Source of the DNA: Nitrospirales bacterium
GTDB lineage: Bacteria > Nitrospirota > Nitrospiria > Nitrospirales > UBA8639
DNA length: 64,000 nt
Reading direction: 5' to 3'
Assembly (NCBI GenBank): GCA_031315865.1
Contig: JALDRJ010000002.1
Span: 2,392,001-2,456,000, forward strand
Shown: positions 8,630-45,479 of the stretch, piece by piece
Layout of the letters: each line of letters starts with the position of its first letter
Numbering within the stretch: the stretch's first letter is position 1
The notes under the pieces: generated by a model
Told to the model about the DNA's origin: nothing
What the model saw: only the letters and a program-made list of their open reading frames with translations
The model's database searches: none
Position numbers and translations under genes: made by a program

Positions 8630-9423
8630 AACCCATTCTGAGGAGATACGGTATGCGGTACGCGCCCAAATCTGCGCTCACGGCTTTGGTAGTCAAGCAG
8701 TGCGGTGAGGAGCTCTTGCCGGCGAAAATCTGGCCACAGGGTCTTGGTGAAGTACAGTTCTGTGTAGGCGATTTGCCATGGAAGAAAATTGCTGATACGT
8801 GTTTCACCACTCGTTCGGATCAATAAATCAGGGTCGGGAAGCCCATGCGTGGTTAAATACCGTTCAAAAAGATCTTCCTGAATATCTTGCGGTCTTATGC
8901 TGCCAGCTTGAATGTCGTGGACCAGGTTTTTGACAGCATCGATAATTTCTGCTCGACCACCATAACTGAGGGCAACGGTCAGGACTCGATCGGTGAAGTG
9001 TTGCGTTTCTTCGGCAACATTTTGGACAAGGTGGTAGACGGATTTGGGGAGTTTTTCTAGCCTCCCAATGGGGAAAAACCGAACTTGACGTTCATGGAAG
9101 ATCTGGCGTTCTTCTGTCAGATAATCATTCAGGAGACGCATCAGCAGGGAAACTTCATGCGCCGGTCTATTCCAATTTTCATGCGAAAACGCGTAGATCG
9201 TGACGTGTGGAATGCCTATTTCATGACACACATCCAGAACATCACGGAGCGCGGACAAACCCTCCCGATGTCCCTCAATCCTCGGAAGGCCTCGGAGCGC
9301 AGCCCATCGTCCATTCCCATCCATGATGATGGCGACGTGCCGGGGCAGGAGAGACAGCTCGAGCTGAGACAAGAGTTCAGCTTCGATGACCTGAGGGGGA
9401 GGCGCAACCTGGTAATGGCTCAT
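8626..9423 (-). CDS. uppS: Undecaprenyl diphosphate synthase
   Basis: Cis-prenyltransferase making the C55 carrier for peptidoglycan and other envelope polymers. The hallmark MDGNGRWA is near residue 34 and the C-terminal signature RTSGETRISNFLPWQ is present. At 265 residues it is slightly long because of a leader of about 28 residues before the core. It appears to be the first gene of the operon running down to proS; the 286 bases between it and the divergent tldD should contain both promoters. Confidence 0.96.
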   Translation of the reverse strand: MSHYQVAPPPQVIEAELLSQLELSLLPRHVAIIMDGNGRWAALRGLPRIEGHREGLSALRDVLDVCHEIGIPHVTIYAFSHENWNRPAHEVSLLMRLLNDYLTEERQIFHERQVRFFPIGRLEKLPKSVYHLVQNVAEETQHFTDRVLTVALSYGGRAEIIDAVKNLVHDIQAGSIRPQDIQEDLFERYLTTHGLPDPDLLIRTSGETRISNFLPWQIAYTELYFTKTLWPDFRRQELLTALLDYQSRERRFGRVPHTVSPQNGL

Positions 9424-9709
9424 GAATTACGCAAACTGAATAGGATTAGGAGACTTGTGTTAGGAACGCCCTGATGAACAGGACTAACTTTTAGTCTAAT
9501 GAGGAATCAGGGGTTTGTCAAACGCCTAGTAGGACGAAACGTGAACTCATCATGCCTATTCATTCATATTCATGCCCGATCTCATTACATGCTGATTGCA
9601 TATCGATTGGATATCGGGCGTGACTAGAAATTGCACAGCCAAAATAGGATGGGCTATACTCTGCTTTCTTTTCGGCTCAGTTCAGATATTGCGCGAAGAC
9701 AAGGTCAGC

Positions 9710-11149
9710 ATGGAACGTTCAGCATCTCCTCAGCTCTCAGATTTCTCCTTGCAGGAACGCGATGTCCAGCACGCACTCGGCCGTGCTAAGACTCGTGACA
9801 TTGATTATGCCGATATCTATTTTGAGTCGAATATCTCAGAGTCCGTGTCCATGGAAGAGGGGATTGTCAAGCGAGCGGTCAAGCATGTGGGCCAGGGGGC
9901 AGGGGTCCGGGCTACGGCCGGAGAGAAGACGGGTTTCGCCTATTCGGACGATCTTTCTCAAGAAGATCTCGCTATCGCTGCGGACACCGCTCGCTATATC
10001 GCCCAATCCCCTCAAGGGGAAGAGCCAATAGCCGTTACCCATTGCTTGGCCCCGACACAGGATCTCTACCCGCTCAAACAGCCCATCAGCGAAATTGCCA
10101 CCAAGGAGCGGGTCGCCTTGTTGTACCTGATTGATCGGGTGGCGAGAGGGTACGATCCGCGCATTTCCAAAGTCATGGCTTCCTTCTCGACAGAGCAGAA
10201 GGCTGTGATTGTCGCCAATTCAGATGGGCAAATTGTCGGTGACATACAGCCCCTGTCTCGTTTGCAAGTTACTTGCATCGCCGAAGAGGGGCAGAACCAT
10301 CAAGTGGGCTCCTATGGTGGAGGGGGACGCGTTGAGTTTTCGTATTATTTCGAAAACGACCGGGCGGAGGAATTTGCACGCGAAGCGGCACGGCAAGCGA
10401 TATTGAACCTTCAGGCCGTTGATGCGCCGGCAGGAGTCATGCCAGTTGTGTTGGGGGGAGGATGGCCGGGGATATTATTGCATGAAGCCATCGGGCACGG
10501 GTTAGAAGCGGATTTTAATCGCCGTAAGACATCGGCCTTTAGTGATATGATCGGACAACGAGTCGCCTCTGATGTCTGCACGATTGTCGACGACGGGACA
10601 TTGCCGTTTAGGCGTGGGTCGTTGAATATGGATGATGAGGGCACCCCGACCTCTCAGACCGTTTTGATAGAGAAGGGGGTGCTCCGCGGGTATATTACCG
10701 ATCGATTGAACGCCAAACTTCTGGGCATACCCTTGACCGGAAATGGGCGTCGAGAAGATTTTCGGAGCATCGTTCTTCCGCGTATGACCAATACGTTCAT
10801 GTTAGCCGGAGAATCGGACCCCGATGATATTATCCGGTCTGTTAAAAAAGGCTTGTACGCCGTCTCATTCGGAGGGGGACAAGTCGATATCACGAACGGG
10901 AAATTTGTCTTTTCTGCGAGCGAGGCGTATTTGATCGAAGACGGAAAGGTCACAAGGCCGGTGAAGGGGGCAACCTTGATCGGCAGCGGTCCGGACATCT
11001 TAAAAGAAGTCTCCATGGTCGGACATGACCTCAAGCTCGACGAAGGGATTGGCACCTGCGGAAAAGAAGGGCAATCAGTGCCAGTTGGCGTAGGCTTGCC
11101 CACGCTTCGTATCGATGAAATAACAGTGGGGGGGACGAATGTAGGTTAA
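9710..11149 (+). CDS. tldD: TldD metalloprotease subunit
   Basis: Catalytic half of the TldD/TldE protease, which degrades or matures small peptides such as modified peptide antibiotics and antitoxin remnants. The zinc motif HEAIGHGLEAD is visible, with H258 and H263 in HExxxH spacing. I chose the ATG at 9710 (479 residues, the usual length) rather than an upstream in-frame ATG at 9596, because AAGG lies 5 bases upstream and the extra 38 residues have no family counterpart. tldE follows after 59 bases. Confidence 0.95.
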   Translation: MERSASPQLSDFSLQERDVQHALGRAKTRDIDYADIYFESNISESVSMEEGIVKRAVKHVGQGAGVRATAGEKTGFAYSDDLSQEDLAIAADTARYIAQSPQGEEPIAVTHCLAPTQDLYPLKQPISEIATKERVALLYLIDRVARGYDPRISKVMASFSTEQKAVIVANSDGQIVGDIQPLSRLQVTCIAEEGQNHQVGSYGGGGRVEFSYYFENDRAEEFAREAARQAILNLQAVDAPAGVMPVVLGGGWPGILLHEAIGHGLEADFNRRKTSAFSDMIGQRVASDVCTIVDDGTLPFRRGSLNMDDEGTPTSQTVLIEKGVLRGYITDRLNAKLLGIPLTGNGRREDFRSIVLPRMTNTFMLAGESDPDDIIRSVKKGLYAVSFGGGQVDITNGKFVFSASEAYLIEDGKVTRPVKGATLIGSGPDILKEVSMVGHDLKLDEGIGTCGKEGQSVPVGVGLPTLRIDEITVGGTNVG

Positions 11150-11208
11150 GGCTCGGTTATTGGCCGACGCCGGGGGGATCTCGATCCTGTCCTGTAATCC
11201 GCTATCCA

Positions 11209-36377: not shown

Positions 36378-37244
36378 TTACAGTGACTGTACGAACGGTT
36401 TGCTGAACTCTCCTCGCGCGACTTCTGCCACCGGCCCCTTCATCGTGATGTTGAATTGAGGGTCAATCGAAATTTCCAGATTGCCGCCCGGCGCTTTTAC
36501 CGTTACGGGGCTTTTGACGAGGCCGAGTCGAATCGCGGCGCTGGCCGCTGCGCAGGCCGAAGACCCGGAAGCTTGCGTTTCACCTGCTCCCCGTTCCCAG
36601 ATCAAAATGGATATGGATTTTGGTCCGGTCGGAACTGCCAACTGAACATTCGTCCGCTTGGGAAAGATGGTATGATTTTCGAGCTCCGGTCCGATTTCCA
36701 GCAGATCTTCTCGCGTCCAGCTTGTGCCTTTTTCTTTAAACACAACGCAATGGGGGTTACCGACGCTGACTCCCATAAACCGTAATGATTGGCCTGCCGC
36801 CTTGACCGGTTGTTGAATGAGCTCTGGAACGCGGAGTGTGCAAGGGAGGGCGATGGGTTGAAACGAGGCTCGCCCCATCTCGACCGTGGCCTCTCCCACA
36901 AATCCATGTCCGTTGACGCCCAGGTGGACCTGCGTGAGTCCTCCTTTGGTCTGTACGCTGAATGTGCGTTTCTTGGTTTTTTTCGTCGCATAGAGATAGC
37001 AGCCGAAGATTCGTAACCCGTTCCCTGATTTTTCCGCTTCTGTTCCATCTGGATTGTAGATTCGCAGGCCAAAATCCGCTTTCTTGCCGGGATGAAGGGC
37101 TAAAATCCCGTCACTGCCGACTCCCCAATGTCGATCACAGATTCTTCGAATAATTCGTGGGGTGAGCTTAAATGTTAATGTCGCCGGGTCAAGGGCGATG
37201 TAGTCATTCCCTAACCCGTGCCCTTTGAAAAATTGATTCTTCAT
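36378..37244 (-). CDS. DapF-like protein lacking both catalytic cysteines
   Basis: A 288-residue protein that aligns by eye along its full length with diaminopimelate epimerase. The usual catalytic cysteines are replaced: Ser73 in EKSGNGLR (family CGNG) and Ser226 in ETQASGSSAC (family ACGxGAC). Codons are TCA and TCC, so neither is one ambiguous base. Substrate-binding positions are kept: N64, N163 in VGNPH, N199, and E217-R218 in ERGAGET. It may bind a DAP-like ligand without racemising it, or do different chemistry. It is not beside lysine genes. GGAG lies upstream of the ATG. Confidence 0.82.
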   Translation of the reverse strand: MKNQFFKGHGLGNDYIALDPATLTFKLTPRIIRRICDRHWGVGSDGILALHPGKKADFGLRIYNPDGTEAEKSGNGLRIFGCYLYATKKTKKRTFSVQTKGGLTQVHLGVNGHGFVGEATVEMGRASFQPIALPCTLRVPELIQQPVKAAGQSLRFMGVSVGNPHCVVFKEKGTSWTREDLLEIGPELENHTIFPKRTNVQLAVPTGPKSISILIWERGAGETQASGSSACAAASAAIRLGLVKSPVTVKAPGGNLEISIDPQFNITMKGPVAEVARGEFSKPFVQSL

Positions 37245-37485: not shown

Positions 37486-38064
37486 TTACGGAATGTACTG
37501 CGCTTGTCTCTGCTGCACGAACTCCAAAATTCGTTGCTGATCACCGTTCGTATCCCATACCACTCGCAAAAAATCCGCGGGATCAATCCCGTGTTTTTTC
37601 AAGAATGGACGATCGCCACCGCATCCATACATGAGTTCCGGTGGCATTTCTCCGCGGAGTTTGGCCTGGGCTTTTTGTATGATTCGTGGAAGCCAACGGA
37701 TTCCACCTAATGCGGCGCTCTTGGGAGGCAGTGTGTTCATCGAAACAGTATGAGACGAAGGCCGTCCTTGTTGTTCCGTCATGAAGTACTGCCGTCGAAC
37801 GGCCGTGATGCGAAGAACGGTATCTTTGTCGGGCTCACCGTCGTCGTGCCAGTCTTCGATAAAGTCATACATTTCTTGAGGAGTGGCGCCGATCGATGAG
37901 AGAACATGAATGTCTTCTGCAGAAAAGAGCTGATCGACCTGTCTGATGCCGGTGGAGAAGCGTTGGACGGCGTTTTCATACAGCTCGGTGAACGGTTTGA
38001 TCCAGTCGTTCGATTCAGGTGGATAAGGACTTTGCATCGTTTGCTTGCTCTTGGCCAGGGACAA
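37486..38064 (-). CDS. DUF5069-like protein, paralogue 1
   Basis: A 192-residue soluble protein clearly related to the product of 44826-45479. Shared features are IGATPQEMYDFIEDW, RWLPRIIQKAQAKLRGEM, ELMYGCGGDRPFLKKHG and DFLRVVWD. The middle part resembles the DUF5069 family, of unknown function. No membrane segment or metal motif is obvious. It lies between the DapF-like gene and a quinone-oxidoreductase gene. The 240 bases on the dapF side hold no gene. Confidence 0.75.
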   Translation of the reverse strand: MSLAKSKQTMQSPYPPESNDWIKPFTELYENAVQRFSTGIRQVDQLFSAEDIHVLSSIGATPQEMYDFIEDWHDDGEPDKDTVLRITAVRRQYFMTEQQGRPSSHTVSMNTLPPKSAALGGIRWLPRIIQKAQAKLRGEMPPELMYGCGGDRPFLKKHGIDPADFLRVVWDTNGDQQRILEFVQQRQAQYIP

Positions 38065-44788: not shown

Positions 44789-44825
44789 CATTCGATTGGT
44801 GTTTTTAATGAACAAGGAGTGTGTC

Positions 44826-45479
44826 ATGGCTATGTCAAAAGCGTTCACAACCCCAAAAGGGTCCCTGATTAGTCGAACTGATGTGAATCGAAAAGGACGT
44901 CCCCGCAATGTGTTTTTGCCCCGTGTCACGCGCCCCAGTTGGGCCACTCAATTCGAAGATTTGACCAGGCGGGGGTTGGAGCAATACCTTGCCGGAGAAC
45001 GAAAGGCCGATTCTTTTTTGAATCAGGAGGATGTTTCGTTCTTAGTCTCTATCGGGACATCAACGCAAGAAATCTATGACTTCTTGGAAGATTGGTATGT
45101 CTATGGGGAGCCGTCCTTTGAAACCGCACTTCGCATCACCGAAGTGCGAGCCGAGTATTTCCTCTACGAACAGCAAGGTTGCCGGTCGACTCGTGTCATC
45201 ACACCGGAGGAGTTGCCAGTGCCAACTGCGGAAATCGGTGGATTCCCCTGGCTTCCTCGGATTATGGCGAAAGCGCATGCTAAATTACGGGGCGAAATGT
45301 CTCCGGAAATTATGTATTCATGTAAAGAAGATCGGGCTTTTTTGAGAAAAGTGGGAACCGAGCCTGCTCAATTTTTACGAGTTGTATGGAGTGCGGACGA
45401 TGATCTGGACTCCATCGTGGAATATGTTAAGATCTCTGCTCAATTCCAGGCCGGTTCTGATCATCACATAAACTGTTAA
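44826..45479 (+). CDS. DUF5069-like protein, paralogue 2
   Basis: A 217-residue homologue of the product of 37486-38064, with the shared core IGTSTQEIYDFLEDW, PWLPRIMAKAHAKLRGEM, MYSCKEDRAFLRKVG and QFLRVVW. I start at the ATG at 44826, with AAGGAG 7-8 bases upstream, rather than 44796. The N-terminal 50 residues are basic and unlike paralogue 1. It lies 15 bases upstream of a cytochrome P460 gene, with which it should be cotranscribed. Function unknown. Confidence 0.78.
   Translation: MAMSKAFTTPKGSLISRTDVNRKGRPRNVFLPRVTRPSWATQFEDLTRRGLEQYLAGERKADSFLNQEDVSFLVSIGTSTQEIYDFLEDWYVYGEPSFETALRITEVRAEYFLYEQQGCRSTRVITPEELPVPTAEIGGFPWLPRIMAKAHAKLRGEMSPEIMYSCKEDRAFLRKVGTEPAQFLRVVWSADDDLDSIVEYVKISAQFQAGSDHHINC

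Follow-up and report, generated by a model that had tools for sequence, protein, structure and literature searches.

We studied a dapF gene, which encodes diaminopimelate (DAP) epimerase, in a 64,000-nucleotide stretch of a Nitrospirales genome (assembly GCA_031315865.1, contig JALDRJ010000002.1, positions 2,392,001 to 2,456,000; from here on, the window). The gene lies in the negative strand at positions 36378..37244, starts with ATG and encodes a protein of 288 amino acids with serine at both sites of the catalytic cysteine pair. DapF serves as the standard example of a thiol/thiolate epimerase and has been studied intensively as an antibacterial target. Both of its cysteines are considered essential; apparently, most of a bacterial order and the Solirubrobacterales keep serine at both sites of the only DapF they have. 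Judging from sequence comparisons, we consider it likely that the window protein is a working DAP epimerase in which two serines stand in for the catalytic thiol/thiolate pair, and that a functional two-serine form of the two-cysteine mechanism probably exists.

The window protein was assigned to DapF by the equivalog model TIGR00652 (224.5 bits against a cut-off of 114.65; model positions 2-268 of 270, i.e., full-length) and by PF01678 (170 bits, two domains). Its AlphaFold2 model had a mean predicted local distance difference test score of 96.2, and the best PDB matches to this model were all DAP epimerases, with template modelling scores of ~0.8-0.87 and 34-38% identity in the top matches. 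The cysteine pair of the family is absent: codon 73 is TCA (positions 37026..37028, negative strand) and codon 226 is TCC (36567..36569, negative strand), and in phmmer alignments with solved DapFs EKSGNG stood opposite QCGNG and QASGSS opposite QACGTG. Ser73 and Ser226 thus correspond to Cys73 and Cys217 of the Haemophilus influenzae and Escherichia coli enzymes, as a first-pass annotation of this DNA had proposed. That annotation had also read the ligand residues N64, N163, N199 and E217-R218 as intact; they were all present, together with N13 and G74-N75. Helices in the model begin at residues 74 and 227, placing each serine at a helix N-terminus like the cysteines of DapFs. The ratio of nonsynonymous to synonymous substitution between the window gene and its two nearest congeners was 0.025-0.045, with synonymous sites saturated. 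Among the defining features of DapF that were tested, only the cysteine pair is missing from the window protein.

Among known systems, the closest are the DapFs themselves (TIGR00652, PF01678; PDB 8qzy, 4ijz, 1gqz and 9mro), which resemble the window protein in length, fold, the DAP contacts checked and pathway context but have both cysteines, and ACG[ST]G instead of ASGSS. Two close structural matches, the H. influenzae DapF mutants C73S (2q9h) and C217S (2q9j), carry the same change at one site each; these are, however, single laboratory changes in a Cys/Cys enzyme, whereas the pair in the window is natural, affects both sites and is conserved. Such engineered mutants are produced so as to impair catalysis and give the open form (PMC12039745). 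A natural serine at the first site is known in two active enzymes of the same overall fold, the Ser93/Cys 4-hydroxyproline 2-epimerase B9JQV3 and the Ser90/Thr 3-hydroxyproline dehydratase B9K4G4 (PMC4113996). Unlike the window protein, both belong to the proline racemase superfamily, act on other substrates and have serine at no more than one of the two sites.

A DapF survey of 236 genomes of the window's order, grouped in four families (f1, the window's own, to f4), showed that DapF is nearly always single per genome. Every DapF read in f1 was Ser/Ser (first/second site); its sister family f3 was mostly Ser/Ser, with Ser/Cys in some genera, and f2 and f4 had Cys/Cys. The loci read in the order, which partly overlap, comprised 137 Ser/Ser, 22 Ser/Cys and 15 Cys/Cys, and one further Ser/Ser (L409), overlooked by the regular expression, was found by eye. 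The conservation of the pair, which the first-pass annotation had suggested checking, therefore extends over 137 places and many genera. A sequencing error or strain oddity, the other explanation raised there, can be dismissed with near certainty, as the same pair occurs in independent assemblies, many genera and several phyla. The DAP-holding residues (N13, N64, G74, N75, N163, N199, E217 and R218) were equally constant in 152 Ser/Ser and 92 Cys/Cys sequences. Note that four genomes of the order (G057, G173, G022 and G032, 95-99% complete) gave no DapF match, either from an assembly gap or from real loss. Locus L338 (G185:C22:821000-840000) contains two Ser/Ser dapF genes in tandem (open reading frames 8920-9807 and 10268-11161, negative strand) with a glyoxalase-family gene between them.

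The pathway on either side of the epimerase step is complete in the source genome. DapL (TIGR03540, 626.3 against a cut-off of 593.25 bits), LysA (550.3 against 297.9 bits) and a DAP-type MurE with the DNPR motif (589.9 against 373 bits) were found, and dapA and dapB are also encoded. A second LysA-like decarboxylase (L075, G000:C2:2349121-2350371) scored just under the LysA cut-off, its closest model being TIGR03099 (exosortase-A-associated decarboxylase). The first-pass annotation had proposed looking for a second, cysteine-containing dapF, and counted the absence of any other dapF as one half of a case against its own proposal of a different function; neither such a gene nor any other PF01678 protein was found in the source genome (98% complete). 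Meso-DAP dehydrogenase (Ddh), which would bypass the step, was represented in the source genome only by a 41-residue fragment match and was found above cut-off in none of 233 genomes of the order. About 40 of these had a distant, mostly full-length Ddh homologue (E values from ~1e-19 to 1e-41), predominantly in f3; such sub-cut-off homologues (e.g., L256-L258) fell mostly in genera g12, g15 and g19. A Ddh bypass was accordingly rejected as a general answer.

In the Cys-containing relatives dapF lies in an operon, argD-argF-argG-argH-lysA-dapF-dapA-dapB(-dapL). The source genome has the corresponding operon at C2:1074-1082.5 kb as argD-argF-argG-argH-lysA-dapA-dapB, with dapA directly after lysA and dapF missing; the native dapF has been lost from its operon. 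As there is no other DapF, the Ser/Ser gene elsewhere in the genome is the only candidate to have taken over. The earlier statement that this gene is not next to lysine genes held within the window, where its neighbours are unrelated (M48 peptidase, LysM/BON protein, DUF5069 and zinc dehydrogenase genes), but it overlooked the lysine operon without dapF elsewhere. In f3 the Ser/Ser dapF has uvrC and a gene of the glyoxalase family as neighbours.

We scanned 84,980 species genomes for a TCN serine followed by G-N-G-A-R, which gave at least 120 stretches. Among the matches listed, most were from Thermoleophilia (Actinomycetota), nearly all of these being Ser/Ser, with the isolates Patulibacter americanus and Conexibacter arvalis among them, and a DapL/DapC-type aminotransferase was encoded in the same stretch at 78 of 99 Ser/Ser loci, often as the next gene. 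One Actinomycetota locus had dapC-dapD beside the Ser/Ser dapF. The Ser-type DapF was the sole one in all 30 genomes searched (mostly Thermoleophilia, plus a few further Ser-type lineages), with one weak sub-threshold second match in a single genome, and none of the 30 had a Ddh above cut-off. In the Solirubrobacterales genomes searched, the Ser/Ser form was likewise the sole DapF and usually encoded near dapL. Ser/Ser dapF genes (NSGNG...ASGTG) located just after lysA were found in the isolates Marinospirillum minutulum and M. insulare (L174 and L184) and in a Pseudomonadaceae metagenome-assembled genome (MAG; L099), and in these gammaproteobacterial forms the serine pair probably arose independently. 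No report of natural Ser DapFs was found in the literature searched, which did not extend to subscription literature.

Wall chemistry gives the strongest sign that cells with only a Ser/Ser DapF make meso-DAP. The peptidoglycan of Conexibacter woesei is reported to be of the A1gamma type, in which meso-DAP occupies position 3 of the wall peptide, and the same source describes meso-DAP as diagnostic for the whole of the Solirubrobacterales (PMC3035278); meso-DAP is also present in Solirubrobacter deserti (PMC10722151). The Ser/Ser sequences read come from the same order as these two species, in other strains.

The window protein would convert the LL-DAP made by DapL into meso-DAP, to be used by MurE for the wall and by LysA for lysine. 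In known DapFs a thiolate takes the alpha proton and a thiol returns one from the opposite face in a closed site, the thiol pKa being lowered by backbone amides and helix dipoles (PMC12039745). Ser73 and Ser226, facing the substrate alpha carbon from helix N-termini, may act as the corresponding acid/base pair, one serine becoming transiently an alkoxide; helix dipoles and backbone amides would aid this in a site that is closed and free of water. Natural Ser/Ser enzymes may hold compensating changes, and a candidate is the extra serine 229 (ASGSS) of the window's clade; the Thermoleophilia Ser/Ser forms (SGTG) do not have it. A precedent for a catalytic serine in this fold is the activity of the Ser93/Cys epimerase (PMC4113996). 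As to a possible benefit, the Corynebacterium glutamicum enzyme is inactivated when oxidation forms a disulfide between its two cysteines (PMC5296763), and we speculate that an enzyme with no thiols, and so no inactivating disulfide, might resist oxidation. We lean, by a narrow preference, towards a broader view: a natural, thiol-free and cofactor-independent Ser/Ser epimerase would have arisen more than once from Cys/Cys forms via Ser/Cys or Cys/Ser, could replace a Cys DapF as the sole source of meso-DAP and is possibly oxidation-resistant.

Several points weigh against a working serine-pair epimerase. Cys-to-Ser mutants lose nearly all activity in HisR (PMC11602996) and are nearly inactive in PddB (PMC8225329), and the latter source cites Mt-DapF as behaving likewise. 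The serine hydroxyl, with a pKa of ~16 (PMC8225329), fits an alpha-carbon acid far worse than a thiol of lowered pKa, and the Ser/Thr relative catalyses dehydration, not epimerisation (PMC4113996). Besides, homology searches could miss an unrelated epimerase encoded elsewhere, and the literature searched gave no account of wall chemistry in the window's own order. If the natural Ser/Ser DapFs work, they would reveal what else in the site lets a hydroxyl do the job of a thiol, and would make the question of how an alpha carbon (pKa ~29) is deprotonated testable with natural enzymes. Ser/Ser DapFs would also be expected to resist thiol-directed inhibitors such as aziridino-DAP.

The weakness of the engineered mutants, along with the intact ligand residues, also suits a DapF that has no catalytic activity and is retained for DAP binding or regulation, with meso-DAP made by an unrecognised, unrelated enzyme; Cys-less E. 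coli DapF, for instance, still binds and activates RppH (PMC4227774). We regard this explanation as unlikely: several unrelated lineages with Ser/Ser, all of which have lost the Cys DapF and have no Ddh, would need an unknown epimerase, and the dapL partnership maintained in Actinomycetota would be left unexplained. Moreover, both sites were Ser and never Ala, Gly or Thr in all 137 places, even where the AGC codon is used (L365, see below), and a dead site would not need serine. Still less probable is an enzyme that epimerises, racemises or dehydrates another substrate, comparable to HisR, CntK, O-ureidoserine racemase, PddB or the Ser/Thr 3-hydroxyproline dehydratase. Members of the fold are known to have changed substrate (PMC11602996, PMC8225329, PMC4113996) and the gene lies away from lysine genes in the window, but the protein scored far over the TIGR00652 cut-off and far under those of the CntK histidine racemase model (NF033599, 14.6 against 300 bits) and the bifunctional DapF/glutamate racemase model (NF038284, 48.4 against 350 bits), its DAP ligand residues are unchanged, and the DAP step would be left without any other DapF.

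It is very improbable that the window protein epimerises DAP by means other than the serines, through pyridoxal phosphate (PLP) or a nearby residue such as Cys231. PLP-dependent activity has been reported for Chlamydia DapF, for which glutamate racemase activity was claimed (PMC5885031). The Ser/Ser DapFs of the window's order retain Cys231, but this residue is common in Cys/Cys DapFs too, and the Thermoleophilia Ser/Ser forms often have S or T instead. We know of no PLP-binding lysine site in this fold. The first-pass annotation had preferred a DAP or amino acid binding protein or a new enzyme; a working serine-pair DAP epimerase is favoured over these by the sole DapF, the complete pathway, the lack of Ddh, the dapL or dapC-dapD neighbours in Actinomycetota, and the meso-DAP walls of the Solirubrobacterales.

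The serine codons, the phylogeny and the loci bear on the origin of the gene. In the window's order the site-73 codon was AGC in 22 of 22 Ser/Cys loci and TCN in 136 of 137 Ser/Ser loci; a Ser/Ser DapF with the other codon family, AGC, was found at L365. In a tree of 78 rows, built with the two catalytic residues left out, the window's clade grouped with Ser/Ser DapFs of Actinomycetota, together with single Cys/Cys and Ser/Cys rows (support 98/92), and stood apart from the clade formed by the Cys/Cys and Ser/Cys DapFs native to the order (100/100). The tree needs at least six changes at the first site and at least five at the second. The native DapF of the order is Cys/Cys in f2 and f4 and, in some of f3, Ser/Cys with AGC, a form with one Cys already replaced; it differs from that of the window in its separate clade, its lysA-dapF-dapA locus where read, its serine codon and its sequence (~30% identity). 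A vertical path from Cys/Cys through Ser/Cys to Ser/Ser within the order is disfavoured by the codons, the separate clades and the different loci, which together favour, without proving, a replacement of the native dapF by a gene from outside. In the approximately unbiased test, a single clade of all DapFs of the order was still compatible with the data (p = 0.283).

Mixed pairs and other variants were also present elsewhere. Ser/Cys and Cys/Ser DapFs occur in Actinomycetota, the latter (CGNG...ASG[ST]G; L291, L292, L296, L300, L301, L303 and L307) at two separate places in the tree. In the Acidimicrobiia-like Ser/Cys DapFs (L108, L122, L130, L149, L200, L204 and L215) the Glu-Thr of the ERGxGET motif is changed to Trp-Thr (ERGVGWTLACG), and some of them are near dapC- and dapD-like genes. 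A divergent Ser/Ser DapF-like paralogue (SGNG...ASA[TA]G) occurs next to a Cys/Cys DapF in the gene set of an Actinomycetota genome (L274 and L294 in genome G532; L297 in G639). Two Micrarchaeota MAGs (L202 and L212) encode DapF-like proteins with SGNG, that of L202 having also SSCGSG and an altered ERGxGET motif; these may be another enzyme. In the window, positions 37486-38064 (negative strand) and 44796-45479 (positive strand) correspond to homologous genes, one of which, a DUF5069 match, lies directly upstream of dapF.
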